Source: Paragonimus westermani (Eukaryota > Platyhelminthes > Trematoda > Plagiorchiida > Troglotrematidae). From it: a stretch of 64,000 nt of DNA. Under the pieces are notes generated by a model. That model saw only the letters and a list, made by a program, of their open reading frames with translations. It did no database searches and was not told the DNA's origin. Below are positions 5,781-52,925 of the stretch, piece after piece. Numbering within the stretch: the first letter of the stretch is position 1; each line of letters opens with the position of its first letter. The stretch spans positions 46,067 through 110,066 of the forward strand of contig QNGE01000961.1 of NCBI GenBank assembly GCA_008508345.1, read 5' to 3'. Made by a program: the position numbers and the translations under genes.

Positions 5781-6119
5781 CTGAACAATGGGAGGTTACT
5801 GCGGAGAAATGACTGACTCGGTGGTTCACCTACCACGGCTTTCGATAACACCGGTGTTAGTTGCACAGCAAATTATACGCAAAGCAATATCACAATATGA
5901 CTTTTACGGCAAGGAAATGCTGTTAATACGGGGTGGTCGTGATCTCCATACTATATACGTATATACAACGGTTTCCGTGTGAACAAATAGTAATCCACGT
6001 GTTATTCTCACTCTCATGTCTGATCTCATACGAACAGTGTTGGATAGTTAATCTACGACTTTATATTTATAAATGAAAATTTACACGCAATCGATAATAG
6101 CTTCAGCAGTCACGTAGAG

Positions 6120-6300
6120 CTGCTGACCAGCCGCTCTCGAAAGGAGGCTCGGGAAAAGTACTTTGCCCTCATTGAGACTTTCCAGTAGTGTATCTTTGCT
6201 AGGATTGGGATTCACTCTCACTGCCCGCTGCACTTGCAAGTAATGGCTAAGTGGCCCAATCGCATTGAGAGGAGACAGTAACTGTCATGACAGCACAGTC
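6120..6300 (-). mobile_element. Decayed ribozyme-SINE, minus copy of an inverted pair
   Basis: Read on the minus strand, this follows the complete SINE in order: linker (around GAGAGGAGACAGTAACTGTC), eroded tRNA-like head, eroded hammerhead region (CAGTAGTGTATCTTTGC on the plus strand against CAGTAGTGCATATCCTTGC in the good copy) and the start of the tail. Box A and the ribozyme core are no longer intact. A plus-oriented copy starts within about 30 bases, so the two face each other as in the younger foldback at 14125-14648. Confidence 0.5.
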
Positions 6301-6312
6301 GAACTTTTACTG

Positions 6313-6440
6313 CCGACCATGAAAAGGATGCGCATTACTAAAGAGACGTAACGAGAGAGAAACTCGAGTCTAATGCTTCTGCATGAAATAAGCAGGTTAT
6401 AGTATCTATGACGATTTGATATTTACCGTCAATTGTGAAT
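6313..6440 (+). mobile_element. Decayed ribozyme-SINE, plus copy of an inverted pair
   Basis: The stretch around AAACTCGAGTCTAATGCTTC (6360-6379) matches the ribozyme 3' half and the start of the tail of the complete copies. The tail then becomes hard to follow. The eroded ribozyme (6332-6376) is described separately. Confidence 0.5.
6332..6376 (+). ncRNA. Degenerate hammerhead with covarying stem I
   Basis: Stem I is GCATTA (6332-6337) with TAATGC (6371-6376), six perfect pairs, although the young copies have GCACTA with TAGTGC. One C-G pair has become T-A on both sides. GAAA (6359-6362) and the short stem III with GTC (to 6370) are kept. The core reads CTAAAGA in place of CTGACGA, losing an essential G, and stem II (6345-6358) is broken, so it should be inactive now. 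Confidence 0.5.
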
Positions 6441-8070
6441 CAGTTCCTGTCCATATAACTCAAAACTCTTTCAATATTAACCAGTAACGTAGACTTTTCG
6501 AAGCCCCGTCTTCTTCTGTCTTCACACTTCTCCCTGCAGCGTTTCGGCATGTTTTGAGGTTAATATCGACAGGTTGGATAATAGACTGCATACTGTAACC
6601 TCTCCTCGCCTACCGCACCGTATCTTTTTGTATTCACCGCTGATTAGGCAGCGGTACACCGCTGGTAAAAATGACCGTTTATAAGTTTTACAACAATTTC
6701 AGATTCAGGGCTACTTCCCATCTTAGGCTTCTCGTGACCACAAGCGGACGATGTGACAGCACGTGACCCGCATGTCAGTCCGACACTGAAATAGTACGAC
6801 TAGCTGAACCAACTGGGCAACTATCTTGTAGATGGTACGTTTTCAACTGGTTTTGGTCCAGTTAGCTAAGTAAAGCTAAGCTGGTATACTGCGGCTTACC
6901 GATCGTTGTACCCACCTAAAATGGTACTACGGCAACAACCGAATTCAGGTGTTTCTGCAGAAACGACGACAGGTCGTAGCAAAGGACGTTCTCGTAGTTG
7001 GTACAAAGGCCGACAGAACTAGCCTCATGAATAAGACAGTTTGGACAAAACACTCCTCTGACACAGTTCCGATAATGTGAAGGCCTAACCTAGTAGCCTG
7101 GTTAGCAAACATTGTACTGGCGTATGCTCGATCTCCCCAGCACCAGGGTCAGGTAGCCTGGGCCTATTACATTGGTCGTCGAACCAGTTTTGGGGAAGAC
7201 CGAGGGCAAGTGGTTCTTCATACTCACTTCAGCGACTGACAGCTTATGCGCTGATTATCGATGTGCATTACTGGATGTAAACGGACAAAACAAAGTCGTG
7301 ACAGCTCAAGTAAGGAGCGGAGTATCGAAATTACTTCCACCGGACGATTAACAACAGAATGCCTTAAGTATAAATTTTAAAAATTTGCAAACTAGAGGAA
7401 CAATGATTGAACTTTACAGGGTTTCTCGCAGTAATCAGGCATTTTGTACCGTTTACAGATCATGCTTCCCTTAATCGAAATGGGCCGTCACGTTGAAATC
7501 CATGAAGCAAACAGTCCCAATCAGAGGTGGTGTTTTCCAGTTTTCAAGGTATCGCTAGCCTAATTCTAATTACTGGGTGTGCGATTTCTAAACTTGAAGT
7601 GAAGCACCGATGAAAGCGATCTTGAGAACGAACTGGTCGCATCAATCAAATAAATTGCACATGTTTAACCGCATTATCCTCTTATCCTCTCTGGGCATCT
7701 GAGAAAAATGAGCTGAAAGTTTGGTGCAGAAAACAACGGGATATTCTGAAATCTCCGGAAACGGCTTAGTTTAACTTTGCCATCAAGGACACTGCATAAA
7801 ATTGAGCTTGCTTGCTTCCGACTGAATCGAACAATTCGGCTACCTAATGACCTACGTAATCTTCTTTTTTACTCATAAAAACGGAAATGTCAAGGTTCAT
7901 TTCAGCATAAAAAACTGTATTTCAGTAAAAACATATACGGACGAATACACAAACTGTTAAATCTTTGGGAAGTTAACCATTTGCTGAGGGAATAGGCTTG
8001 GTGGTTAAGTTCCAGTAACGGATCTATCCGCCTTTAACTCGAGAAGGGGATCACTATTTGGTCTTCTCAC
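6441..8070. other. No gene seen
   Basis: AT-rich sequence without recognisable coding, RNA or repeat features. A 15-base string TATGCGCTGATTATC near 7247 recurs near 10866 and may mark an old dispersed repeat. Confidence 0.45.
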
Positions 8071-8169: not shown

Positions 8170-11100
8170 CTAAACTTCTTCCCAGGATACCGTAAACAAA
8201 GAGGTGACCTAATATTCGTATTCATGGTTCTGAAGATCTCATACAAGCCTTAAGGATCGCTGCTCACTCTTACGATTATCAGCTGAATTAGAGGTCACTC
8301 CTTAAAATTGAACAGTCAATACGGCCAATCTGAGTTCAGGCATGACTTCTCGGTACGGTCTACAGGGTTTTAAACTTCCTTTTGGGACATGTTGTGAGTG
8401 CCAAGACAGTGACTGTGTTTAAAATTCGCTCAAATCCTTACTTCAGTTCTTGTTCTAAATGTCAAACTGTTGTTGGACACACTGCCACTTGCGTATGTTT
8501 GTCCGCCAAATAGCCCATACCTTTCCATCTCATATATTCACCTAAACGTGGAATTGTGTGTAGAGCAGGAGTATGTATTTGATTTTCCATCCCTCTGGTA
8601 CCATCATCAAAAGCTGAGAAGTGCGAATTTCTCTACTGCGAGCAGAGGTTGATTGTCTAAAGAAGAACAGAACCATAGAAACCTGTCGCTTTATACTTCC
8701 TTTCGCTATCATCCGAACTCACCCAATCCACTGAAAGTGTTCAGACGTGATTCACGAGCGGTTGACACAGGCGGCTGAAACGGGACACCGACCAGGATGT
8801 AAAGCCGAAACAAGAAAACTAGGAAAATGGGTGAACAGAGGGTGATTTAGTCTATATGTAATAAAATAAGTTCATAATTAATGGTGGCTTTTGAACTGAG
8901 ACATTTCGGCTAGCCTCTTTTGAGATGAGTAATTAAGTCGGTTCTTATACTTGTTAGCCCTCGGCAGTGGAACGTATCCTTGTGGTAAACACGGTTTAAC
9001 ACGGTCAACCGTGTTGACCAATGCAACATTCGCCGCCAGTTTGAAAAGAACATATAATTATATTCTAAATCTTGTCCTCAGTAGTTTCTGAGTAGTACTG
9101 TGATTTGTCGGTCATCTTCAAAAGACATGATAAATGTCTCGCAAACACCGTTTGAGAAGCACACGTTCAAGACCTCATTCAGATGAAGTTACTGGTGTTA
9201 GTAAACGTGCCAGATGACAGTGTGATTACGGTTGATATAAATTTAACACTGCTTGCAAACAAATATAGCTGTGACGTCAAAAATGATATTCCGTTTGTGT
9301 TCAGCTTGTAGTCGGCGTTCAAATTTCACACGACCTAAAGAAATGTGTTGTGGCGAGTTTGAACAAAAACCGAGCTAAAGTTTGGTGATTCCTCCCGATA
9401 GCCACTGGACGAAAAACCTAGGTGACTACTGCAATAAGCTGTTGTAAAGATGTGCACTATTGGTGAGTACTAATAAAATTGAGACGTGATTCTAATGTTT
9501 CCTTTCGAAGTGAACTAGCCGTAGGGCTAATGTGAACACAATGACCGCTATCAAGTGTGAGTGGCTCCTAATATTATACATAGTGTCATCAAAACGGAAA
9601 AGTCTACCACCAGCGGTATGTTTATAAGCATATTCCTAGTTACAATTACCTGTAAAGATATGAGAACTGACCTGCCGAGTTTTGTTAGCAAAAATCTGTG
9701 ATGCTAGGCGCATTAAGCTTCGCGCTTCTACTCTACAGAATACAATTGGGATGAGTGGATCCCGCTTTTCATACTTTGTAAACCGTAGGTTGTCAGTCCA
9801 CGTGTGCACAAACGAAAATAAAGATATCATAGGCTCCTCAAAGTTTGCGTGGTTTATATTTGAAGCGTGACTCCAAATAATCGTCACTGGTGCTTAGGCA
9901 ACCACCACGGCAATAAGAAGATTAGTATGGGCACCTACAATGCAGTTGGATAGATCCCGCGATAATCAAATGGTTTCTACTCGCTAGCCAACACTAAAGT
10001 TGTCGAGGTCCCGCAGGTGTTGATTCCTCAAGTACGTTGAATTTTCGGCTAGGCAACCAAAAACCCCTCCTGTTTTGGGACTCAAACTAGTTTCAACCGT
10101 TAAAATCCATTGATGTCAGCTCTATATCTGCAATGTAACAGTGACAGAGATGAAGATATTAGACTACGATTAACTTCCTACAACGAGACTCAAATAAGTT
10201 TTTTCAGTTAATTTGGTGTGGTTATAAGATCCTCCAGTTTCCTTATTCATTAGACGCTTCACTTCATGAAAAAAAGGGTGAGTAATATGATAGCCTTTCA
10301 CAGTGTTTCAGTTTCTGACTGTTTTGCAACAGTAGACTGATGCAACAACTGATGGCCTCAAACAATAGTTTCCACTCCAAGAACCCACCAACGGCCGTAA
10401 CACACTCATAGCTGCTGTCACACAACCCCGTTTTGCGATTAATTACATCGTCAGAAAGACTTCAATAACACCCCTTCAAAATATACGCCAAGGTGTGCAT
10501 TTAATTCATTCGTTCGCATCAGCAGTGCAACCACAATAACAGTTTTCGTATGAAATGTGAAACAAACAGGTCTTACATTATTATCGCTAGTCGCGCGAAC
10601 ACAGACTGCAAACTAATATTGATAGCCGGTCGTTTTTGAACGTGCAAAGTGAGGTACTGACAACCGTTAACTAACGTATCTGCAATGCTGAACAGTTTCC
10701 GAGATTTCGGCATTTAGCGGGGCAGTAAACAAAATGCAACATTCATTTAGTGAAGTATAGCTAAAAACAGCTTTGCGACTGAAATCGTTATGCTCTTCTC
10801 TGCGTTGAATGCCCTCATGAGATCGGCTTACAAATTAATGACAGTCAGTTATGCTTATGATCCTATGCGCTGATTATCAAAGTTCTATCTGTTCCAACAA
10901 TGTGCGTTTTTTCTTGCGCAAAAAGCATCAGTCTAGTAACTAACCCAAAGCGCAACAGTTCGAGTGAATTGAAGAAAATGACAACCCAGTGGATCGCGAA
11001 TGTGAAGTGTGTTTTATAACCATCCCACCTAACCTATACTGTTGGCCAGTACACCGTTTGTTTTATGTTAATTTCGCTTCAAGGATACATTACGTTATTA

Positions 11101-14022: not shown

Positions 14023-14124
14023 CAGATTTATCATAAACAAACTGTTAAATTTTTCGAAGAAAGATACAGTTGTGAGTTTAGACACTACGATTAGGTCATG
14101 TCTAAAAAGAGACTAAAAGCGAAG

Positions 14125-14648
14125 TTTTCAAGTTGACCATCACTCACATTTGATTGCAGCCTTCGCATTCAGATAGACTTTCCAGCCAGCATCCTCCGGA
14201 TACAAAAACTAGACTCGAGTTTCGCTCTCATTAGAGCTCGTCAGTAGTGCATATCCTTGCCACGGCCGGGATTTGAACTCCGGCCATTCCAATCATGAGG
14301 CAACCGTGTTCACCATTGCGCCATTCACCTCACATTAGGCACGACCAAATTATCAAACCTGAACGCTCAACCACTCTCGCTTGTGAACAATGATCAGATT
14401 GCCCGATCGTCTCGAGAGGAGACACAGTAAGTGTCCTGTTAACTCCAATCGATAACCCCGCGATTAGGACTTCCAAGACAGGTCGAAATCTCCGATCTCA
14501 TCAAACCTGGAAGGCGATATTTTAGGTTACTGGTGAGTAGTCGGGGATTAGGGCTGGTTGGAAAGTCTATCTGAATGCGAAGGATGCGATCAATGTGAGT
14601 GATGTTCAACTTGAAAATAAACCAAATCCCTGACTACTAATCAGTAAT
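14125..14648 (-). mobile_element. Foldback ribozyme-SINE insertion with 12-bp target duplication
   Basis: The insertion is bounded by the perfect direct repeat CTAAAAGCGAAG (14113-14124 and 14649-14660). From 14125 to 14549 it is a minus-strand unit in the order linker, head, hammerhead, tail, ending at the left junction with the same GTCAACTTGAAAA end as the 20-kb copy. From about 14550 to 14648 there is a plus-oriented tail plus the start of the next linker. The two parts meet at AGTAGTCGGGGATT (14536-14549), whose complement also ends the right part with small changes. This is the layout of a 5' inversion by twin priming, and it needs a template that ran past one unit end. Confidence 0.85.
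14207..14250 (-). ncRNA. Hammerhead ribozyme in SINE, shortened stem I
   Basis: Read on the minus strand: GCACTA, CTGACGA, stem II GCTCT-AATG-AGAGC, GAAA, CTCGAGTC, then TAGTT. All catalytic positions match the perfect copies at 20105 and 20536. The 3' side of stem I keeps only the TAGT part, because sequence after it (TTTTGTATCCGGAGG) replaced the usual CTTCTTTTCG, so stem I is four pairs. Activity is plausible but weaker. Confidence 0.75.
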
Positions 14649-14660
14649 CTAAAAGCGAAG

Positions 14661-19884: not shown

Positions 19885-20004
19885 TTATGTCACAAGGTTA
19901 GGGTCAAACGTTTGTGTGTGGTTAGACTGGGTATGATCGATCTGTGGCCACAGAAGTTGCAAGGACTGAACAAACTTCTTTTGAGAGCACAGGTCAGGGT
20001 TGTG

Positions 20005-20016
20005 TAATCTGACTGC
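20005..20016 (+). repeat. Target-site duplication, left copy
   Basis: TAATCTGACTGC here is repeated exactly at 20662-20673 on the other side of the SINE dimer. In the Penelope-like reading frame only one copy is needed, which confirms that the second copy came with the insertion. Confidence 0.9.
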
Positions 20017-20031
20017 CTGATGTGAGGTGAA

Positions 20032-20087
20032 TGGCGCAGTGGTGAACACGGTTGCCTCATGATTGGAATGGCCGGAGTTCAAATCCC
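20032..20087 (+). promoter_or_regulatory. Internal Pol III promoter, unit 1 (boxes A and B)
   Basis: TGGCGCAGTGG (20032-20042) fits box A TRGCNNAGYNG at every position, and AGTTCAAATCC (20076-20086) differs from the box B consensus GGTTCGANTCC at only two positions. The GCCGG and CCGGC around box B can pair as a T-arm stem. The same pair of boxes recurs 431 bp on (20463-20518). Confidence 0.8.
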
Positions 20088-20104
20088 GGCCGTGGCAAGG
20101 ATAT

Positions 20105-20149
20105 GCACTACTGACGAGCTCTAATGAGAGCGAAACTCGAGTCTAGTGC
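20105..20149 (+). ncRNA. Type I hammerhead ribozyme, SINE unit 1
   Basis: All parts are intact: stem I GCACTA (20105-20110) with TAGTGC (20144-20149), six perfect pairs; core CTGACGA (20111-20117); stem II GCTCT (20118-20122) with AGAGC (20127-20131) around loop AATG; GAAA (20132-20135); stem III formed within ACTCGAGT; cleavage predicted after C20143 in GTC. The very short stem III is typical of metazoan type I hammerheads, which often work best as dimers, and a second copy lies 431 bp downstream. Confidence 0.92.
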
Positions 20150-20535
20150 TTCTTTTCGAAAGAGGCTGGCTGGAAAGTCTATCTGAATGCGAACGCTGCG
20201 ATCAAATGTGAGTGATGGTCAACTTGAAAATAAACCAAATCCCCGACTACTCATCAGTAATCTAAAATATCGCCTTGCAGGTTTAATGAGTTCTGTGATC
20301 TCGACCTGTCTCGGAAGTCCTAATCGCGGGGTTATCGATTGGAGTTAACAGGCAGTAACTGTGTCTCCTCTCGAGACGATCGGGCAACCTGATCATTGCT
20401 CACAAGCGAGAGTGGTTGAGCGTTCAGATTTGATGATTCGGTCGTGCCTAATGTGAGGTCAATGGCGCAGTGGTTAACACGGTTGCCTCATGATTGGAAT
20501 GTCCGGAGTTCAAATCCCGGCCGTGGCAAGGATAT

Positions 20536-20580
20536 GCACTACTGACGAGCTCTAATGAGAGCGAAACTCGAGTCTAGTGC
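20536..20580 (+). ncRNA. Type I hammerhead ribozyme, SINE unit 2
   Basis: Identical to the unit 1 ribozyme at all 45 positions: stem I 20536-20541 with 20575-20580, CTGACGA 20542-20548, stem II 20549-20562, GAAA 20563-20566, cleavage predicted after C20574. Cutting at both sites would release a 431-nt monomer (20144-20574) with 5'-OH and cyclic phosphate ends that could be ligated to a circle. Confidence 0.92.
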
Positions 20581-20661
20581 TTCTTTTCGAAAGAGGCTGG
20601 CTGGAAAGTCTATCTGAATGCGAACGCTGCGATCAAATGTGAGTGATGGTCAACTTGAAAA

Positions 20662-20673
20662 TAATCTGACTGC
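20662..20673 (+). repeat. Target-site duplication, right copy
   Basis: TAATCTGACTGC, identical to 20005-20016. The element ends in TTGAAAA and the duplication starts with TAAT, so the exact border is uncertain by one or two bases. Confidence 0.9.
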
Positions 20674-21795
20674 AATCGATTCGGCGGTCGCCAGAATGCG
20701 CCGACAGACTGTTTTTGGTTGAGCGTGGGCCACTCTCTAGATAACCCGGAATGCTTTGTTAACGCCCATGCGACGGTTGGTCTCACCTAGATGTGCAACA
20801 ATGACGCTGGTAATTGAGTTATGGCCACCGGTTCCGATCCAAGCTGGATGACGTTTTTTGACTCTTTTTGACGAGCGCCCAGTCGTACGACCAACATGTG
20901 CTGCAGTGCAACAGCAACATGAAATTGAATACACGAGCATTGGTTGATCTTGGACTGATAGCTTGTCATACGGGCTCAATTTTAACATCGGCGTTGTTGT
21001 GAACCAGCTTATCAAGGTTGCGGCTGGGAAGGTGCGTCAAAGTGACTGGTACAAACACCGGTTGAACCGATCTACTACAGCATCCCCTTCAAACGGGAGT
21101 TTTATAAACACGGTCTTCTTTTCGGCTGTGAACATCGCCTCATGTGAAATTTCGGCCTTCATACTTGGATGGATGAATTGCTCCGGATAACCGTTTTCCC
21201 TCAATAGATTTTCAATCGTTTTCAGTTCCTACTCCACTGCGTCATCTGAACAAATCTTTCTTGCTCTAGTTGCCAGGCCCTGAGCTAGATTTCGTTTCTG
21301 TTTGAGGGGCACGAAACTGTTGAATTTTGTGTATTGATCTGCCCATGTAGGTTTACGATATACCGACTGACTCAGTGTACCGCATCTACGTCTGGCCAAT
21401 TTGACATCTAAGAAATGGAACTCGTTGTTAGATTCCTCTTCTGAGGTAAAGTGCAGTGAAGCTTGTGCTGCATTAAAAACCCGAAGGACAGTTGCGTATC
21501 GGCAGTACCTGTGGAGACGCTGAATGGTTGACTGAAGTTGAGGTTCCAATTTACCCATGAATACGTCTGCCAACAGTGGACTCAATGCTATTCCATCCGA
21601 TTGTCGATACAGCTCGCCATTGAAACATGAACTGAATATTGAGGGTACACCGCAAAAGCGATTCTTTTAGGCATGATTTTTGCAGTCCAAGCATGCTTTT
21701 CGGTTGTTCTATCTGATCACACAAAAAGTTAACTGTCTCCACCAGTGGAAAGTTTGTGAATAGCGAAGTGACATCAAGGGAACCTATGTAGCGGC

Positions 21796-24700
21796 TTCCT
21801 CGTCAACTCGTTAATTCCGACTATGTATTCTCAAAGGAATTTAGGAAGTAGACTTTTTATTGTCAGGTAAACCGTAGTGATTTTCGTATTGTTGAAATTA
21901 CTTGACAGATTATAGCTCTTTGTCTCCGTGAAGTTGGAATATTGCATTCCGTAATTCCGATTCTTTTGTTGGGCTTTAAAGCACATGAGACAAGCAACGA
22001 CGGTATGAAGCCACTTTTTCACAAAACTTTCGAAAAGTTTTCGAATTCAGCGCTCCACCTATGGCCAACATAAATTCCCTACGTCAGTTCTGTGGACGAA
22101 ATGGAGTTCCGGCGACATTCGTTCCGCCATTGAACTTTCCCTGTTAGTGAAAAATTAACAGAACTTAAACCTAGGATTAATCCCCTTGACTCCTGAAAAA
22201 CTTTACGATTTCTCACAGCCGATAAGGCTGAATCAGTGGAGGTAAAAACTGATTGTTAATACTCATTAACAGAGTATTCCAAACAGCTAGAGAACTTTTT
22301 CGCTTACTGTAGCCCACTGTGGACCACAAAACTAAAGACCCATCAATGCGACCTTGCTATCTCCACATAGAACCATAGGTATCAACCATCGATTCCTTAA
22401 CGTTTAGGAAGATTAGTTAGTTTGCAGCAAACCACGAGATTCCTTCCAGTTCAAGGTAGTTTACTCCGAAGTTCGTCTAGAAGAAGTTCAACTGGCAGCA
22501 AGATTAGTAAGCAATGGCAGTTTATGTAATTTTAAACTTCTATGCAGGTTATTGTAGTCACTTCAGCGGCAGCGAATTTCGCACTTTCGTCACTGGTCTC
22601 GTGATGTATCTAACGCTTAGTGACCCTTAGTTGGGGTCCCGAGAGGCTGGCGTGAAACTTTCCAAAATTCGAACGGCATGATTCAGGGGTACCAGGTGTT
22701 ATTCATCTGCTACCTATATACCTGTTTCTTTTATGATGGGCTTTCTCCGAACATATATGAATGCTGTGTTTAAATAGCGTTTTACCCTGAATTTTTTCCA
22801 GTTATATGTCGTCGAAACTCGTAGGCCCTGCACACCATGCGCACAAGTTAGCTCCATCCTCGTTAAATTTCAGCCTATAATCTACTTAAAGGGGAGTGTC
22901 CTAGAGTAAACGAGCTGAAGTATGACGAAGGCCAACAATGGGGCAGTAGGAAACAAACGAACAGTAACTTTACGTTACCACCAAAGTCGCTCTTCACACA
23001 GAGACTCACCAGTTAGTCAAAAGCGAACGTAAGCCAAACGAAGTATTAATTGAAACATACGGCTGGCACATCACATACACAAAAAGATTTGTTTGTGGGA
23101 TGAGGTTACCATATACCTCCTCCCCACTCAACTAAGGTGAGTTGGAATGACATTCAGAACTGCTATTGCACAACCGCGTAAATAAACAACACTGGAAGTT
23201 GCTTTTATTCTTAATCCAGTTTGAGTGACCCATAAAACTGTTAGAAACCCTAATTATATTCGTGACATGAGAGTTGGAAAACACTTGCCTGTGTAAGGGG
23301 CCCAGACTGTTTCATACTAAAGAAGCAATTATGAACTATTTCCTGAGTGGTTGTCCATAATGTGCTCAACGCCAGACCCAACTCCAGTGGTCAGTTCATC
23401 AAGTACGCATAAAATGACTCATGACTAACAAGCAGACAGGTCGATGGCAGCCGCACTTTGCGATCAAAGTACCAAGTGCAAGACAGACGCTTAACCGTTT
23501 TTTATCATCATCTGTCTGTCTGAGTATATTCCACCTAAAACTGGGCCACAACTAGCTTCCTGTTGCTGAAAGTATTCTTGCTTCTTCAACCCGCGCCAAG
23601 CGTAGGAGTACAAGTAGGCGATACTTGCACAAAATTCCCATCAAATTTGAATGCCATCAAAGTGTATTTGAGAAACAATGACGGGGTTCACGACCGGTTA
23701 TCTTTGTAAGACGTCTGCATTTTCTACTAGTAGTTATTTTAAGTGGACAACCTTCAGATGGATAATTTAAGCCGTATTGCAATAGTGAACGTGTTATTTA
23801 CGGACTTGCAGCTCGTTTGTCAGAACATTCACCACGCCCAAGATATGACCTCCAATCACGACCTAATCGACGATTGCGCCGTTCATCTCAAACTGGGTCC
23901 GACATAAATGTCATGTGTAAATGCTCTGGAATTTCCAATTTTGAGCAACTTAGAGACTACTGAATTGTTATTACTGGTGACTAAGTTACAGTTGCTGATT
24001 CAGTGATTATAACTTCTCTGTGAATTGGAATAGCTAAAACACTGAAAGTCTCCAGCAGTATTCTGATAATTTCAAGCTGATTATTACTAATTTGGCAAGG
24101 GATGTTAGTCGACATTAGGTATGCACCGCTCATCAGTGGTTGCAGCTTTCGTGTTTCCACAGAATTTTTAGTAAAATTTTTTTAAGGAGAGGCACTGTTC
24201 TTGAGTTTTGATTGTTCTGGAGCTTGTCAGTTATTCATGTCCTCGTTGCAAACGGAATTTGCGGTCCAGACGATCACGAAAAGACACTTATGACGGCCAC
24301 TGTGCCATTGCATTCACAACGGACTCAGCCAAGTTTTCATACACAAACGCTCTAAAAAATTCACTCTTGGGTAATATTTGGACCACCCGATCCCTTTTAG
24401 AAGAAATTGTAGCTGTTTTGATGATGTGGTTGTCTTCTAACCAAACTAATGTTGTGTATGTTTACTGATTAAACTTTCAATCGAAATCTGTTTTCGTCTT
24501 ATATGTTAAATTAGGTTTCAATTCAAATTCTAATCTGCCGTGTTGTACGTCGAATACATACCCCCATCACGTCACACACCGGTCCTAAATATGCATCATT
24601 TTTCAGTAGGGTACAGTGTGTACTACTGCCGTCTCCTATCACTCGGGTAACCAATATTTCCCGTTTGTGATTAGAAAGCACATTAAAGCGGGTAAAAACT

Positions 24701-27836: not shown

Positions 27837-30817
27837 CACGTTTTAATCTTTAATGGTCACAACTTGAACGCGTGCGGATTTCCGCATAACATGTGGTTTA
27901 TTTTAAAGGAAAAGTACACAAAATTGTTGGTGACTGCCTAGCAGTCAAATACACAGTCGCCGAATTGTCCCTTAGTTCACAGTGGCAAGTAGGATTTTTT
28001 CTCTGAAGTATGAAATGAAAACACGCTGTAAAACTATATTTATAAAATCGTTGTTTCCTGCACCAACGCGTTCACCACTTAGGAGACCAAACGCCACTCC
28101 GAGGGTGACATGTTCCAGAATGAAGTCAGTCAGCGCTCCAAAACGGCTCAGAGTAGGCAATGGGTCGGTATCGGCATCTGTCTAATTGGGCAGTCTGAAA
28201 CGGTCTTACATTTGGAACAGTAACGGACTGTGATGGTTAACAGCAATTCAGACTATGAAGCAAACCATGATTTGAAACATCGTGACAATCGTGCCTCCCT
28301 GCTCCAATTTTATTTCCGATGGTGGTCGTAAACTTGTATCTAACACAACGAACCCATCCTCACAAACTACTAACTTGTCGGATTTGACAAAAGATGTACA
28401 TATGTGCATTCAGAACGTTTTCAGGTCTATGCGCACGGGTTGTACGTAAATCTGTCGTCATGCCGTTGGCCGCTTGAATGTGATGGGTGCAAGATACGCA
28501 GTGTGCAACTCGGCTTAATTAAAGAGCCTGATGGAAGGATTCGAGCTACCGCTTTTAGCTTGATAGAAGGCCAAGTGGTCCCCCAGGCGGCTTCTTGTAA
28601 ATTCGGAATTTTAACCAGTACATCAGATGCGTCGGGGAAGACGCGCTCTGTTTTCCTGTAATTTACCTGTAGATCCAACACCCCTGCTGATCTTTCAGTC
28701 AGTACTTTTCACCGTGAACGTAATTCTCGAGCTCCATTTGTGCCAGCGTTCATCAATTTTGTTCGTTGTTACTACAGCTAGTATCAAAAATCTGAATTAC
28801 TTTACTTTGAGGCGAACGAGTAGACCAATGCACCCTGGATCTCATACTGACCGCCACCTGTGTTGCAACTAGACGTTCAGCCACAGTTGCTCTTGCTCAG
28901 CAGTTTCGGGAAAATTTGAAAGCCCGGTTTATTTAGTTAGTCCTAATGGTTGTTATCAACTGGATTTGACAAGGTAGCTTCCGTGTCTGTCATCGAGGTG
29001 ATCGAGAAAGCTGTGTATTACCCCGTGTTTTTTCCTTACTCTCATCGAATCAGTCTGCAAATGCGAGACATCCTCTCGCTCACGAAATGACACACAGAAA
29101 TGTTGAATCATCCTAAGAAATGTTAAGCCGGCACGTCAATCATCACGATGGACGGTCAAGGGAGAGAGTACGAAAGGCATCCCTTTATTGAATAAGCGTG
29201 TGAGCGGATCTATCCTAAACGAAACATCGTAATTCAAAACAAGCGAACGGTCACTGTGAGCATACGGAAAGGTTTTTCCAGTGCATACGGCAGTCATGTC
29301 TGTACTCAACCCTTGATGACAGTTTTGTGCGAAATCAGCAACTACTTATCCGTTATAAAGCGCGCGTCTCAGTCCACATTGCTCTCTAAATATGCACCCC
29401 ACAATGGTTTTTCACTATTTTGCTTGCAATGAATATCCAGCATTACTTTTTCTCTCGATATACCTCTTCAAATGTCTGAAAACTTTTGAGATTTGTTGAT
29501 GCTTCTCCATGTGAAATACATCAAAAGTACATCAACTATGTGTTTTCATGGCTGAGAAGGGCTAATACAAGCGGTTGTAGACAGCACAGTGAAAAGTTAT
29601 TCTAACACTTTGCATTAGACAAAAAAACAGTACAACCGGTTTGCCGATTGTATCAAACATCCAACGCCCACAGTAGTGCGATGGATAAAAGATTGGCTTG
29701 ACAAAAATATTTAAATAAATAACAGCTGAAAGCAACTGGAATTGAAAGATGCGATTAGCATTAACAGTGGCTTCACATTTCGTTATGCCTGCAGACTGAA
29801 CCATTCGTCTTATTGTGGCGGTCAACAGAACATTACAACAAATCAACCTCAGAGGAAAGCATCCAAAGCCACCCAGAGGAACGCATGCTTTACTTTCAAG
29901 GCCTAAGAAGCAATCACTTATTTAAATACAGGTAGGGGAACGTAGGCACAGGTGAAAACAGCAAAGCTGTGAAACTTGGTCAAAATGAAACTGGGCTGAA
30001 TACTTTGTATGCAAGGAATCGCTGACCGACCTAATCGATGAACCGTCCAGGCTGTTGTTGAGTGTTGCAGACACAACACATGAATTGCAAAAACGGATGT
30101 GCTCGCAGAACTAGGAAATGAAGTTCAGTTATGAGGTGGTACACTCAAATGATGCAAAGCTTACACATTGACACCGAGGCATTTGCTGGAAGTGCGAACT
30201 TTTATACCAAGCGAAGTGAGGAAGAGAGCAACAATATTTACTTCTCATTTAGTTACGCCATACATCCGGTTGCGTGTGAAGTTAAATCATTTCATATAAA
30301 TATGGACAACCGTAAATTATTAATAAGTAATAGAGATTGCATCTGCATCTGTTTAGAGAGGGGTAACGTACTTCTGTATGAAGACGAGTAGACTTGCCAA
30401 GGTGAACAAGTCTGTTTGTTAACCACCTGTGGATGACCACGAAAACGGGGGGAAGGTATTATGAGCAGATTTTCGATGTTATTTAGGGGAGTTCATGAAA
30501 CATATTGTTAGCCTAAATTATTTCCGTTTGACCTGCGATGTTCACTGACCAATTAGTTTGAGGTGACAGACATCCAGATAACCGTAAACGCAACGTTTAG
30601 TTCATTTCCTCTGTTGTCTTCACGCGATCAGCCCACATGAAATTGACAAAAATGGAAGTAATTAAAACCGGTGGGTAAAAATGAAGTTGACAGAATAGCT
30701 GTTTACCGAAACGGTTGCTTTTCAGTTTACCGATTCTGAGCCACTAGATGTCTTTGGTTATTAATGTGCCACGACTATTGTTTGATCGACATTTGTGTGA
30801 ATACGCTTCACAGTTGA
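27837..30817. other. No certain gene
   Basis: A slightly GC-richer patch at 28404-28681 is open on both strands (85 and 84 codons), which is more likely an unrecognised repeat or chance than two genes. An 86-codon plus-strand frame at 30131-30391 has protein-like composition but no family or clear splice sites. Confidence 0.35.
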
Positions 30818-34984: not shown

Positions 34985-36958
34985 GTGCATACTGAAGCAG
35001 GGCATGCCCACTGTTTGCCACACTTGTCAAGTAAGCAGTTCACGCAAGCACAGTTGGAAGTACTTTCTTTGGGCTTGAAATACAAACTTCCGCCGAAGAA
35101 AGTCAACCGGTTAACGACTCAAATTCAGTTTGAAAACCCATACGACCAGCTAAAAGAGCTGTCTCCCACTTCACCAGAAACTGCAGGTTGGTTTCGTGCT
35201 AAGTTGGTCAATGTCTCACACAATTTTATACTGTCACCCATTTGCCAGCGTTGTTATCTACTATCAGAACATTATGAGGCCATCAAACAACTGAGACAAA
35301 TACAGGACGTTGTGTTTCTGAAACCAGACAAAGGCGCCGGCATCGTAATATTGAATAAAGATGATTATGTGATGAAAATGCGTACCATCCTGGCTGATGA
35401 CAGGAAGTTCACAGCTGATCGCACGTCAGATAATAACATTTTAGTAGAAAAGCAAATATCGAGGAAGCTGAAAATTCTTTTACAGCGTGGATATATAAGT
35501 GAGCGGGAGTATAAACGGTTGAAACCGATTGGGACTCGTACATCACGTATGACAGGAACCCCCAAATTGCACAAGGGCGGTGTCCCTTTGAGACTTATTC
35601 TTGCCATGGATGATCCACCTTACCAAAAACTTGCTCGATAGCTAGTTCAGCTCCTAGACCCCATCCGCAAAACCCTCAGCTCCCGTTCTTTGAAGGATTC
35701 TTTTGAATTGTGTGATATCTTGGAGAATATCTGGGTGAGTTCCGCACAAAAGATGTACTCCGTTGATGTTGAATCACTATTCACAAACGTTCCGTTACAT
35801 GAAACAGTTGATTATCTATGTAATTTTATTTTGTCTTATAACATTTCTTCATTCATTTCTGTCGACTACCTCAAATAATTGATTCTTATTTGTACGTAAA
35901 ACATTCGATTTGAGTTTGACGGATGTGCTTATAAGCAAGATAACGGTGTGGCAATGGGTAGCCCGTTTGGTCCAACACTGGCTGATATTTTACTTGGAAT
36001 GGTCGAAGATGGACTGTCGGATTGTATTGCTCGTTCTTTGCTTTATAGACGGTATGTCGACGATATCATATTTACCTTTTTTCATCATTTTATGACCCTT
36101 TAATATCAGTTTAACTCTGCCCATCGAAATCTCTGTCACCTATGAACAAGAGCTTGGTAACTCACTACCATTCCTAGAGTCCTTATTTCTAGGCACTCAG
36201 ACGGTACACTCAGTAGGTCTGTTTATCGAAAAGCCACATGCCGGTGGCTTACAAACGTAGTTTGGTACGAACTGTTGTTCACCGAGCAAGGAAACTGTGC
36301 ACGGCCGACAACCTACAGTCTGAGGAGGAGCTCTTAAAGAATGTTCTGTTCACGAATGGATACCCGGCTAAATTTATTGAAATTTATTGCAAGGAACGAG
36401 TGACTGCCTCTCAACCACAGTTAGTGCCGAGAAAGCAGGTTTTTATCAACCTTCCTTTACACAGGAGACCACAATATTACCGATGTAAGTCGAAAGTTGA
36501 AATCTGTCACTGATCGCGCATATCCCGCGGCGGATTTGCGCTTGTTACACTCCACCCGTAGGATGAGCCTCCAATGTCCCGATCGTTCTTCTTCGGAAAA
36601 CTCTGTCTCTCACGTTATCTACCAGATCACCTGCAGCTGCGGTGATTAATACATCGGCAGAACGGACCAAAATATACGACAGAGGAAGGGGAAGCACATT
36701 CCCAAGTGGCTAGTGCAAACAATGTTTCAAGGCGGGTCAGTATACCAAAACTCGAACAGAAATCCGGCGTCTTCGCTCGCCAAACACCTAATCGCAACAG
36801 GTCATGTGGTTGAGCCCGACACCTCGTTCACGGTACTGTTGCGCAATCGCGACCCAAGATTGTTAGCGTTCTCCGAGGCAGTGTTGATCAAGCGTCACGC
36901 ACCGGCACCTTGTTGGCAAAGGGTGCTGACGCAATCAATTTCGTTGCCGTGGCAGTGA
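34985..36958 (+). pseudogene. Penelope-like element, nearly full length, inactivated
   Basis: The parts follow the family order: an N-terminal region (LSSKQFTQAQLEVLSLGLKY), KPDKGAGIVILNKDDY (from about 35321), TPKLHKG (about 35558), SVDVESLFTNVPLHETVDYL (from 35759, first RT catalytic Asp), NGVAMGSPFGPTLADILLG (about 35942), YRRYVDDIIF (YVDD at 36053-36064, intact), a thumb/linker region (RARKLCTADNLQSEEELLKN), then a GIY-YIG module with HVIYQITCSCG and YIGRTDQNIRQRKGKH (about 36611-36695), and a C-terminus ending SEAVLIKRHAPAPC and SISLPWQ. Lesions: TAG at 35639-35641, TAA at 35876-35878, several frame changes between 35880 and 36240, and TAA at 36647-36649 between the two halves of GIY-YIG. 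It is much more complete than the copy at 19885-21795 and belongs to a different subfamily. Catalytic residues remain, but it cannot make the full protein. Confidence 0.92.
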
Positions 36959-37041
36959 AACCTGATTGCAACTAAGTGAAGTTCGTTCATTTCATTGTTT
37001 TGACGCTACACGCTTAACCTACATAACCAAATGTTTTATGT

Positions 37042-37081
37042 AACTGACTGATGAGAATAAACGAAATGCTTGCATCTCGCA
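37042..37081 (+). ncRNA. Hammerhead-like motif, family 2, 3' of the Penelope-like element
   Basis: CTGATGA (37048-37054) and GAAA (37063-37066) are perfect core elements. Stem III is ATG-CTTG-CAT with ATC cleavage triplet (to 37076). Stem I is weak, three pairs (TGA 37045-37047 with TCG 37077-37079), and stem II (GAATAAAC, 37055-37062) can form only one pair. It starts 90 bp after the stop of the Penelope-like frame, where hammerheads are known to occur in this retroelement class. The following block matches 232-278. Confidence 0.45.
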
Positions 37082-37099
37082 ATGTATGTCTTCTTGCTG

Positions 37100-39126
37100 T
37101 CCTGATGAACTGGATAAAGGGAACTGTGTTTCAAACATTATATGGGCTAGTCTACCCTCCTTTGACAGCTTCTCAATCTGGTGCATCGTCTGTGAAAAGT
37201 TTTGGTGACCAATGTAAGAAAGTGGTTGAGGTACACTTTTTTTCAAGAAAATTCACCGAGCAATAAAACAGATACAACTGAATCATTTGGGATATCTTTG
37301 TGCAGTAAAGTGCGTAGAACCGTCTACGGAAGGCAAAATACAACTGACCCCTGATTAAGGGCAAGCAGTATAATCGTTATTCTACGGGTCCATACAGTTT
37401 GCAGTGCATTAAAAGTGAGCAGAATGAAGCTGAACAATCTTCAGCAAAAGAGGTGATGTCTTGAGAACACAAAGTTTACCAGAAGCAAACCGCCGGTCTT
37501 ATTGTTGTCGCCACTCATAAGGTACACTTGGAAGGATAATTTTGCTTACGTATTCTAACATACAGCCCAACGGATTCATAGGTCTGCAGATTAGATGGGA
37601 TTAACCTATACCTAAACCTCTGTTGGAAGACTTGGAGGGGAAAGTTGTCTGCAGCTTGTTTCATTTTTAGACGGTCAGTAACAGAAAATCTGCTATTTAG
37701 AAAACCACGGGATGATAATCGAAATAGAAACGTAAAAGCTATCTAACAACTACCGCATTGTAGCGTAGAGCGGACAGTTGGTTGCTAACGTGTAATGAGA
37801 GGTCGACAGTATCGTCAGTTTGCAGAATTTGTCCCAAGAATCAAGCTATTTGGAGACTCATTTTTGTGTTTCGAACATGTGAATGAAGTCTGCGTCAAAA
37901 TTCAACTATCAGTGACATAATTGCAACAGCCTTTGATAGGTAGTTTTAGATAAGGTACACCCGGATGCTAAATTAGTCTTCTGTGCAGGTCCAAAGACTC
38001 AGCTGATATTTTGGCTTCAAAAAGTTACTCGAGTCACAAGTATTTGTCGTAAGAGATGTTGATGTATGATGAATGATTCTGCATACTGAACTCAAGATAA
38101 GCCTGATATGGCGGTAGTCTAATGCACAGGTGAACGCTGAGATTTGTGGTTAACAACCTAATTGCTACTGAGTTCAGCTGTTTATCTCAGACTCAATAGA
38201 GTGCTAGTCACAAATTCCATACCGATCAATCTGGTATCAGGTAGAAAATCAACAATGTGTCCATCACATTCTTCATCCGGACCTTCCATGCGTCGTCCAT
38301 GACAAACGTGGACAGAAAGTTGGAGATGACATCCGTTGGAAAACAGTACTAAAGGTAGTGAACAGAAAAAGTCGTCCATGAACTCTGAACTCGCTGGCAC
38401 AGTCAATATAAAGGGATCACAACAGATTGCTACACTTCCTTAAGGTTTTTCAAAAAGGCAGTTCCAGAGCATTATACGAGCAACTGAAGCAAAAGTTATC
38501 TGTAAAGACACTGAAGTTCCAAGACCCACCACAGAGTGGAAATATACTCAGTAAACCTTCGACCGAATCGGAATCCCACCTGTTCTCCATTCATTCGACC
38601 TTCGCTGGGTTTATTGAGCTGATTCATTATAAGAGCAATGAGTAACTGGGATGCGGCAGAGAATGCACTAGCGCATCAGTCGTTGTCACCTTGAATTTGA
38701 ACTCTCTTTCTAAAAATGAAGGGTACTGCTGATAAAAGCATGTCACAAGGCAACTTTTCAGGTTTCCAACTCGTGTTTGTTGTCAGCTTGTTAGGTGGCT
38801 CCATCATTAAACTCCGTTTCCTATCTAGTGGCACTATATTACTCAACTGTCAAATTCAGAAGTTTAAGACAATTTGTGCAAAGAAAATTCTGTAGCATCT
38901 TTGACGGGGCATGTGAATACCGGTTGTGTTACTAATAAGTAGTGTGGCGGATTTATTAGTAATACAATTTATATGTTCGGCAGCAACGTTGCTGGATCCC
39001 AACGTGAACTATTTGAAAAATCTTGCCACAGCAGTCGATCCCCTGAATCATTTGTTGGATTCCATATGAGGCAGTGGGGTGAGTGGGTGACAAGTTCCAA
39101 ATGTGAAATTTCCGAGCTCTTGGTGT
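37100..39126. other. No gene seen
   Basis: Contains short frames of chance length (37019-37266, 38182-38645), no recognised domain and no repeat beyond the family 2 block at its left edge. Confidence 0.4.
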
Positions 39127-47357: not shown

Positions 47358-47815
47358 CTAATGTTCTGCTTGGTAAGATAAAGTTCCCACGGACTATGAG
47401 TAAATTCTAATTGAGGTTCAACGTTTGGCTAGTATTTGAGGTTTACCATCAACTTATATGGTTATTTGCTAGGTAACTGTTCAAAGATTTGATCAGTACT
47501 TACAGAATTTAAAACACTTTTTCTGTTAAGGATTTGAATAAGGAAGACAATAAGCTGATATATCCAAGTTTTTGGACAAATTTTGTTGTATCTTTATAAG
47601 TGCACACAACGGATCATATATGTGTCAAAATGAGAAGGCAAACTAGATACCACATATTCCAAATGAATTAAACTTGGAGAGAATTCCTATTCGAGAGATC
47701 ATTGGCTGGGGTTAACAAGAGAGTTACTCTGCCTCTTCTCTAGGTGACTGGACAAATAGGGCTCCACTCATGAACGAATGTGGGCGAGCGTTCACGTATG
47801 ATAATTTGATCGTGG
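47358..47815. other. No gene seen
   Basis: AT-rich sequence between the candidate exon and a SINE relic; nothing recognised. Confidence 0.4.
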
Positions 47816-47982
47816 CTTACATTAGATCAGTGACGCAGTGGTCAACACGGTTGCGCCTCAAAAGAATGGTCAGAGTTATATTCTACTGACAAACCCTAAA
47901 AGGGGGATACTCAAGTCCACTACATTTATGAGAAGTCTATGGAAATGCGAAAGCTGTGGTCTATTGTGAGTGATGTTGGTTA
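47816..47982 (+). mobile_element. Decayed ribozyme-SINE copy
   Basis: Box A region TGACGCAGTGGTCAACACGG, GGTTGCGCCTCA, a ribozyme relic with CTGACAA (from 47886) and a possible small stem II CCC-TAAAA-GGG, then a tail with GAAGTCTATGGAAATGCGAAAG and GTGAGTGATG. Box B and stem I are lost. It ends about 30 bp before a Penelope-like fragment. Confidence 0.6.
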
Positions 47983-51000: not shown

Positions 51001-52704
51001 TATGCAGGGACTGGAACGTCCTTCATATACATGTGTGTCTTTAAGAACAAAAAATAGATTTGTGCGGTTTAAAAGTGCAGTCATTCGATCTAACGGATTA
51101 TTTTCCACCGTTAATTGCGCACCGTTTAAAGCAGTGGAATAGATAATGTTTTTAGATCCTGAGTACATGAGGGTCTTTGTTGTTATAGGCTGAACGATTA
51201 AACGTATCTTAGTTTCAGAAATAGCACACTGAAGGCATGTTTAACTACAGGAATTTACAAGCACATTCAGGCAACCAGTAATAAGTGAATGCCAACAAGT
51301 GATAAATAGTAAATGTTCAAAAGACGTCCCACCTAAAAATGGCCTTTCTAATATCTTACGTTTTAAAGGTCTGACCATCGACCTTAATCAAAGTCACAGA
51401 GTACTTCACAAAATTATATTAAAGCCAAGGTTTCGGGCGCGATTTTACAAAAGAAATGAACATTTTCTGTAGGCGCCTAAAATTGCAAAAGATACACTCT
51501 GGGAAGCTTAAGCTATTCATTATTGGTTAAGCAAATAATTCGGTATATTGGACGAAAACTGTATTGTGACATTACAATGCAACCATTTCAGTGCAGTGTG
51601 GAGTAAGCCAGCTTAAGAGGAGGTACAGTCCCCAATATTGACTATGACTGTTTACGGACGGCCTGCACGTCATATGCAAACGGTAGCAAGAGTGTCCCCT
51701 GACATTTATCCCAAGATTATTAGACGACGTCCATCAACAGCGATTTCACTGCATGGGTACATCAATTTTCGACTACCTTTCTAACTGTTAAATCTAGAAA
51801 GCTTTGTATGGCATCAGACCTGCTTAGTGAGCTGACCAAGTCAACAGAAAAATGTTTGGTTGCACATGCCGTGTCTTCGCCACTTTAGTAACGCGCCACA
51901 TACAGTTGCAATGCTAAAATGTTCAACGTTCATCAAGCTATGGAGTCGAGAAGAACAAAAGACGTAGACTTGTAAACCCGTGAGAACAAGAACACATTTA
52001 ACCTTTCAAAGAGATAAATCTATCCTCACTAGTGAAGATCACGGTGACCCAGTTATCAAAAAACCGACTCTCATTGGGTTCCGGCTGTGAAATTCTTGGC
52101 CTTCCTCATAATCGCGTCAGTGGTTAGCTAAAATGGATACTTCTGTCTAACAGTTAGACTTCAAAGTTGATCTGTCCAAAATACGCCTTTCTTTCCAGAT
52201 CAAGCCTCCGGTTTTATTATAATTAAGTAGTCAGGTGTCGGGCCTCCATAAATATTGAGCTAGCACTAAGAAATTACCATGGGGACTCTGTGAAAGGCTG
52301 CCTTCCAGTGTTATCTACGTGCTTGCGCACTCTTCTACACAGTTTTTTTTGAGTTCTTACTCCACATTTTTTCATTTGTCAACTTCTTTTTTAAAGTGTA
52401 CCAGACGAGAATGAAGAACGCTGGCACACTATTGAGTTCGACTACCCAGCCCGTTTAGTGTTAACTCCACAGCTCAAATGCATCTCACCAAACGCCGAAA
52501 CACTGCCCTACTAAAACACACTCACAGTGCCGAATCCACAATACGAAGCACACCTACGATGATTAGAATAACGCTGTTAAGACGGTGATGGACAAACAGT
52601 TTTGTGAAAGTAAGCCTGCGTAAACCCAATGCTCTCGAGAAGACCGGGCAGTACGTAGTCCGCTCACGCGAGTTTGTGGTTGGGCTTTCAATTATGACTG
52701 ATCG
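51001..52704. other. No gene seen
   Basis: No coding or repeat features that I can support. Confidence 0.4.
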
Positions 52705-52925
52705 ATCACGCCTATTGGGATGCCAATGGCTTTCTAGTTAACACGCTAGTTCCAAAAACATGAGAGCCGGAGTGCAAATTTCAGCTAGGACAAAGATATG
52801 CAATATTGATGGACACTAAAAAGAGCGGAACTCGTGTCCGGTGCTTCCTCATGAATTGCGTCAGCCGAAATGCTGATCTGAATGCAACGACTGTGATCAA
52901 ACCTGAATGATGTTCGATCCGAAAT
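52705..52925 (+). mobile_element. Decayed ribozyme-SINE copy
   Basis: Follows the complete unit from the end of the linker through the tail: CCAATGGC and GTTAACACG in the head, GCCGGAGTGCAAATTTC in place of box B, AAAGATATGCAATATTGATGG in place of stem I and core, GGAACTCGTGTC for GAAACTCGAGTC, then a tail ending near GTGATCAAACCTGAATGATG. The core is not functional. Confidence 0.65.

Follow-up and report, generated by a model that had tools for sequence, protein, structure and literature searches.

A hammerhead retrozyme of Paragonimus westermani with a Pol III-type head and Penelope-like insertion ends

The enzyme that spreads the retrozymes of animals is an open question; Penelope-like elements were proposed earlier for this role (PMC7229834, PMC7761336) and are regarded as strong candidates on the basis of shared ribozymes, tandem form and co-occurrence (PMC7229834). 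In trematodes, the Sm-alpha element is related to tRNA-Gln-TTG, and about 38,500 hammerhead candidates are given for S. mansoni (PMC2770079). The purified Penelope protein of Anolis starts reverse transcription at two adjacent internal sites matching a 30–40 bp genomic tail, and it cleaves and extends both strands (PMC11167929). In rotifers, Penelopes carry an inverted pseudo-long terminal repeat (pLTR), a 31-bp tail and duplications of 8–10 bp; their head-to-head arms are attributed to self-priming on an antisense template and not to extension of both strands (PMC3846280). Here we analyze a repeated element in a stretch of 64,000 nt from Paragonimus westermani (contig QNGE01000961.1, positions 46,067–110,066, assembly GCA_008508345.1), referred to as the window, whose coordinates are used throughout. 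The COX1 protein of this assembly, translated with the flatworm mitochondrial code, agrees with that of P. westermani at 100% over 511 aa, the next best match having 82%. An initial annotation, made from the sequence alone, had described the element at 20017–20661 as a tRNA-derived short interspersed nuclear element (SINE) with a self-cleaving RNA. According to our data, it is very probably a non-autonomous hammerhead retrozyme with an RNA polymerase III (Pol III)-type head, copied in trans by Penelope-like elements.

Insertion ends of the element

The element at 20017–20661 is a 645-bp insertion on the plus strand that contains 1.5 laps of a 431-bp unit (G+C 47.8%) in the order R(214)–U(217)–R(214), which confirms the unit length given in the initial annotation. 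The first R repeat (20017–20230), comprising head, hammerhead and tail, is 98% identical to the second (20448–20661), and their four differences all lie within the first 58 bp; the unique middle U, as defined by the sequence and the 431-bp period, occupies 20231–20447. An exact 12-bp target-site duplication TAATCTGACTGC, which occurs twice in the window, flanks the insertion at 20005–20016 and 20662–20673 (plus strand), with the TAA of the right copy possibly also belonging to the element. In the window list of open reading frames (ORFs), none of at least 130 aa overlaps the insertion, and the statement that it has no open frame thus stands.

Joining the two flanks by a script and aligning them by tblastn to a second Penelope-like element at about 35–37 kb gave a protein alignment that continues across the insertion junction, indicating that the insertion lies within a decayed minus-strand Penelope ORF. 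The part of this host element from reverse transcriptase to GIY-YIG is found at 20674–21624, and its C-terminal continuation on the other side of the insertion at 19948–20016 (both minus strand).

Positions within the unit are expressed as a phase, phi 1–431, in which phi 431 corresponds to window base 20661, U to phi 1–217, and the predicted ribozyme cut to phi 344/345. The genome-wide search for copies that the initial annotation had suggested was carried out on the assembly of 823 Mb in 9701 contigs, and gave 2205 first-look candidates with the window copy as a query and 5253 with a copy at 14 kb of the window; 40 were scored in each case. The first sample comprises 40 arrays, namely the window copy and 39 loci fetched from the 40 scored of 2205. 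The second comprises 20 loci hand-picked from the 40 scored of 5253, with a query from the 14-kb subfamily and with contigs of the first sample avoided.

The 3' ends of the 40 arrays fall predominantly at two sites about 30 nt apart: 17 at site A (phi 430–7; 86–94 nt past the ribozyme cut) and 19 at site B (phi 28–39; 115–126 nt past the cut), with four elsewhere. In the window copy, the 3' end itself is at site A (20661–20664), the internal copy of this putative start site of reverse transcription is at 20229–20237, and site B, at which other copies end, is at 20258–20269 (all plus strand). The bins for A and B, defined on the first sample, were already fixed when the second was taken; in the latter, seven arrays end at A, 12 at B and one at phi 10. 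Beyond the main arrays, 37 further matches were found in 254.5 kb of flank and window sequence. They are not all separate insertions, as some adjoin main arrays (for example, at loci L023 and L031) and one corresponds to the 14-kb copy's inverted arm; 27 of them end in the broad zone phi 412–40, chosen after the data had been seen, in which 14% would be expected, and only two begin there.

A head-to-head inverted 5' arm was found in 14 of the 40 arrays at the first pass, and the outer ends of 12 of these arms fall at the same two sites (three at A, nine at B), with two elsewhere. A closer look at the other 26 arrays revealed one more arm, that of L023, which ends at A. Target duplications of at least 8 bp are present in 12 of the 40 arrays, as compared with 19 of 776 mismatched pairs of flanks. 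The whole layout is united in the 14-kb copy (14125–14656, minus strand): its 3' end is at site A (14125), its head-to-head inverted arm (from about 14552, plus strand) ends at site B on the other side, and a 12-bp duplication CTAAAAGCGAAG encloses it at 14113–14124 and 14649–14660, the CTAAAA of the right copy being common with site B.

These ends bear on two other explanations. The A and B boxes of the head (see below), the lack of an ORF, dispersal, 5' truncation and target duplications would also suit an ordinary tRNA-derived SINE moved by a long interspersed nuclear element (LINE) through target-primed reverse transcription, with twin priming as the source of the inversions. Twin priming, however, should leave the outer end of an inverted arm arbitrary, whereas in 12 of 14 arms it coincides with a 3' end site; moreover, the 3' ends lie at two internal sites and not at an RNA 3' end, a poly(A) or a short repeat, and the Penelopes of the genome have the layout of the element. 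Because arms and 3' ends stop at common sites, LINE twin priming was rejected as the origin of the inversions (LINEs themselves were not searched for), and we consider movement by a LINE very unlikely as a whole. A satellite-like repeat with a fossil ribozyme, grown by unequal crossing-over, would give head-to-tail arrays of up to about 7 laps, as observed, and crossing-over may have changed the lap numbers; but the element forms scattered insertions with target duplications, at least one of them inside a Penelope ORF, some inserts have just 1.5 laps, and the 3' ends are fixed while the 5' ends vary, which makes this origin extremely improbable.

It should be noted that the interiors of the arrays are suspiciously uniform. 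A full unit with no difference from the window unit is present in 35 of the 40 arrays, whereas edge pieces of at least 60 bp differ from it at about 424 of 16,218 bases (2.6%); in L036, 17 of the 20 variants seen in the 5' edge are found again in the 3' edge, on either side of a reference-like middle. The interiors therefore look overwritten by the consensus of assembly or polishing, with gene conversion as an alternative cause, and neither the lap numbers nor the second hammerhead of the window copy are reliable base by base. The phases of the ends are unaffected by whole-lap assembly errors.

The arrays range from 1.51 to 7.2 laps; the longest, L025, has about 7.2 laps and a 269-nt inverted arm. 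Many array 5' ends lie at phi 145–183, near a CTCTCG...CGAGAG hairpin (phi 137–183). This cluster may mark a stop of reverse transcription or may be an effect of the choice of arrays, since the 5' phases of the first 40 are biased by the fact that the chosen arrays hold nearly the whole 645-bp query.

Penelope-like elements of the same genome

With the Penelope ORF of the window as a query, 7370 first-look candidates were obtained, of which 150 were scored, and by our own count 42 of the 150 scored matches contain stop-free frames of 690–850 aa. A protein search with the same ORF gave a single weak match, and Pfam on five ORFs a single match below the cut-off.

The elements end in a manner similar to the retrozyme. 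We compared 17 Penelope ends, comprising 12 fetched 3' ends, the window element and four inverted arms: by program, eight lie 31–37 nt and six 57–68 nt past the ribozyme cut (14 of 17), and reading by eye across a 2-nt deletion brings L070 and the window element to these sites as well, giving 16 of 17; L066 (+22) falls at neither. The window element is the decayed element 2 at 34985–37135 (plus strand), whose 3' repeat includes a minimal hammerhead motif recognized by eye (core at about 37048); past the deletion, its 3' end (about 37135) is the Penelope site B.

Inverted 5' sequence is present in four of the five upstream stretches and absent from L059, with the head-to-head junction itself not seen in the fetched upstream stretches. 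The outer flanks of the four arm-bearing Penelopes share 7, 13, 12 and 13 bp; none of 12 mismatched pairs shares more than 6.

A minimal hammerhead at the start of the ORF was seen by eye in five of eight Penelope 5' regions (L048, L049, L051, L052 and L055) and not in L050, L053 and L054. The ATG sits in a conserved CTGATGA (CTGAAGA in L049), and the cut would lie 26 nt downstream of the ATG position, the same distance as stated for the Anolis element (PMC11167929). Rfam did not score hammerheads in these 5' regions, its sole matches being a weak one to a retrozyme copy and a chance one to a microRNA. In one contig, C4438, a stop-free Penelope (L048 149–424, L063 about 317–340) is apparently inserted into a copy of the retrozyme near site A, with retrozyme sequence on one side and retrozyme-like sequence, read by eye, on the other.

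Fixed 3' ends at two sites, inverted arms that end there too, target duplications, inserts of more than one lap and the parallels in Penelopes are observed features of the family, and from them we strongly infer that a Penelope protein is the enzyme moving the element. Several observations weigh against this assignment. The distance from the cut to sites A and B exceeds that in the Penelopes examined by about 57 nt, and comparison of the A–B regions of the retrozyme and the Penelopes, by eye and by blastn, gave no clear sequence match; the sites thus do not single out an exact partner family. Four of the 40 arrays end elsewhere, at phi 112, 117, 263 and 265, and two of the inverted arms have their outer ends at phi 341 and 399. 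Duplications of at least 8 bp are confined to the 12 arrays mentioned, several of them overlapping the element, and the 5' ends of older copies do not lie at A or B.

Ribozyme, Pol III-type head and template

All hammerhead parts named in the initial annotation are present in the sequence: GCACTA/TAGTGC, CTGACGA, GCTCT/AGAGC, GAAA and GTC. The covariance-model check that it had proposed placed both copies just above the gathering score of the type I hammerhead model RF00163 (34.7 bits at each of two plus-strand sites, gathering score 34, E = 6.2e-05), at 20105–20149 with the predicted cut at 20143/20144 and at 20536–20580 with the predicted cut at 20574/20575. RF02275 (HH9) also matches with 35.3 bits and does not reach its own gathering score of 52. 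The parts of the two units described there as perfect are thus in place, but since the array interiors look homogenised in the assembly, the two copies are probably not independent evidence. For the same reason, the interiors appearing overwritten by consensus, we rejected the identity of the two hammerheads as a sign of recent selection.

Helix III is weak, being either a loopless ACTC/GAGT palindrome or two base pairs with a 4-nt loop. Folding z-scores were not notable for the 45-nt ribozyme (−1.6), a 281-nt stretch (−0.9) or the 431-nt circle (−1.6). The hairpin that follows stem I shows several differences between the 14-kb copy (14188–14205, minus strand) and the 20-kb copy (20150–20167), and both versions can be paired by eye, as compensatory change would leave them. 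Self-cleavage of the element RNA is predicted.

A pattern scan with the box consensus found an A box (20032–20042) and a B box (20077–20085) in the head on the plus strand, about 35 nt apart and repeated 431 bp downstream, so that the Pol III-type head of the initial annotation is borne out; the window contains six such A–B pairs on both strands, as compared with 0–2 per shuffle in 10 shuffles. No tRNA was called at the head by ARAGORN at default settings or by Rfam at E up to 10, and relaxed ARAGORN settings gave a single implausible Ser tRNA with mismatches. The designation of a tRNA-derived SINE was therefore not upheld as worded, the tRNA not being called and the ends of the copies having the Penelope and not a LINE-driven layout. 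Transcription by Pol III is suggested by the boxes. A lone TTTT at 20153–20156, about 10 nt past the ribozyme cut, is a possible Pol III terminator, and because of its position a full-lap transcript would require read-through.

The question raised in the initial annotation as to how an uncut template survives is a real one: a single end in the 40 arrays, that of the inverted arm of L028, lies within 5 nt of the cut, which points to templates that were uncut or re-ligated and not to cut linear monomers. Both target strands appear to prime, and the template appears to exceed one lap. We propose that an element RNA longer than one 431-nt lap would be taken up by a Penelope protein that nicks both strands of the target. 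Reverse transcription would start internally, about 87 nt (A) or about 118 nt (B) downstream of the cut, and would proceed upstream, covering 1.5 to about 7 laps in the observed arrays; with both strands extended, two cDNAs would meet head to head and produce the inverted 5' arm, and short target duplications would close the insert. The hammerhead would most likely cut concatemeric transcripts into 431-nt monomers, whose ligation to putative RNA circles would provide endless templates.

Whole laps are in excess among the 26 arrays in which no arm was detected at the first pass: in 11, the length departs from a whole number of laps by −5 to +50 nt (3.4 expected, p ~ 2e-4), and with L023 excluded the values are 11 of 25 (3.2 expected) or, for −5 to +25 nt, 7 of 25 (1.8 expected), all for limits chosen after the data had been seen. 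Such an excess speaks for a circular template, with the enzyme running into its own starting point. Self-cleaved 431-nt circles from Pol III transcripts may thus be the templates, with a Penelope reverse transcriptase that circles from a fixed site and tends to stop there, leaving whole-lap arrays; we hold this view tentatively, at somewhat less than an even chance. The tandem pLTR structure of Penelopes themselves may arise likewise.

L013, L016 and L031 carry different variants at their two edges, which speaks against a single circular template and would agree with a long linear concatemer that escaped self-cleavage and was copied by Penelope, with no role for circles. The weak helix III also suits such a transcript, and according to a review, many type I ribozymes have a weak helix III that blocks self-cleavage of the monomer but not of the dimer (PMC7761336). 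The excess of whole-lap arrays argues against the concatemer; so do the shared variants of the L036 edges (17 of 20) and of the L025 arms, with the reservation that a homogeneous concatemer would produce these too. A linear template is accordingly possible, with a probability that we also place a little short of one half.

Family copies and comparison with known systems

The window contains many older copies of the element detected by nhmmer, which are not chance matches since the reversed window and five shuffled windows gave none at E up to 5. An old copy at 6065–6497 consists of two arms head to head at 6286/6287 with outer ends near A on the left and near B on the right; a target duplication was looked for there and not found. 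An old tandem copy lies at 23809–24404 (minus strand), and others at 47681–47976 (E = 7.3e-28) and 52630–52923 (E = 1.5e-30), both on the plus strand. Further old copies with oppositely oriented arms are at 8820–9565 and 28723–29023, and the pair of these that meets head to head at 28895/28898 has outer ends that are at neither A nor B. If the flanks and window surveyed are typical, the family would be of the order of 10^5 copies per genome, a rough figure, since the sequence flanking young copies does not sample the genome at random.

As an ORF-less, hammerhead-bearing, high-copy retroelement with Pol III-type boxes, the element is of the Sm-alpha/retrozyme kind, as the initial annotation had placed it. 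With Sm-alpha and Sj-alpha, the SINE-like elements of Schistosoma, it shares a trematode host, a type I hammerhead, a high copy number and perhaps, in the case of Sm-alpha, a tRNA-related head; its 431-bp unit differs from the 335 bp of the Sm-alpha-like W-element (PMC8490949), and the accessible excerpts of PMC2770079 and PMC8490949 do not mention Penelope-type ends for Sm-alpha.

Metazoan retrozymes without long terminal repeats (LTRs) are likewise tandem type I hammerhead repeats with G+C below 50%, no LTR features and target duplications of more than 4 bp, as compared with 12 bp at the window copy (PMC7229834). The element shows the sequence features of this group, namely an RF00163 hammerhead, a noncoding tandem unit of 150–450 bp, G+C below 50% and duplications above 4 bp, although 431 nt is slightly above the 170–400 nt reported for retrozyme RNAs (PMC7229834). 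It also has A and B boxes, whereas retrozymes seem to be without promoters (PMC7761336).

The anatomy of the insertions is that of Poseidon of Anolis and Pen of Adineta, which have direct terminal repeats, a head-to-head inverted 5' arm, target duplications and an optional tail of about 30 bp (PMC11167929, PMC3846280), resembling the two end sites of the element about 30 nt apart. As in the element, the hammerhead of the Anolis Penelope lies upstream of the start sites of reverse transcription (PMC11167929). Unlike Penelopes, the element has the two sites, the arm and the duplications with no reverse transcriptase or GIY-YIG ORF, and its stem II is of canonical length.

The combination of a Pol III-type head with Penelope insertion anatomy in a hammerhead retrozyme appears to be new; a search of literature listings, to which subscription papers were mostly closed, brought up neither Penelope ends in a retrozyme nor hammerhead repeats from Paragonimus. 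The partnership of Penelope and retrozyme becomes directly testable, with the two distances from cut to start serving as an assay, and our results suggest that the Sm-alpha-type "SINEs" of flukes merit re-examination for Penelope ends. In earlier work on retrozymes, the case for Penelope was built on co-occurrence, tandem form and shared ribozymes (PMC7229834, PMC7761336); in this element, it is the insertion ends themselves that indicate Penelope, reproducing the two-site start and the extension of both strands reported for the purified Penelope protein.
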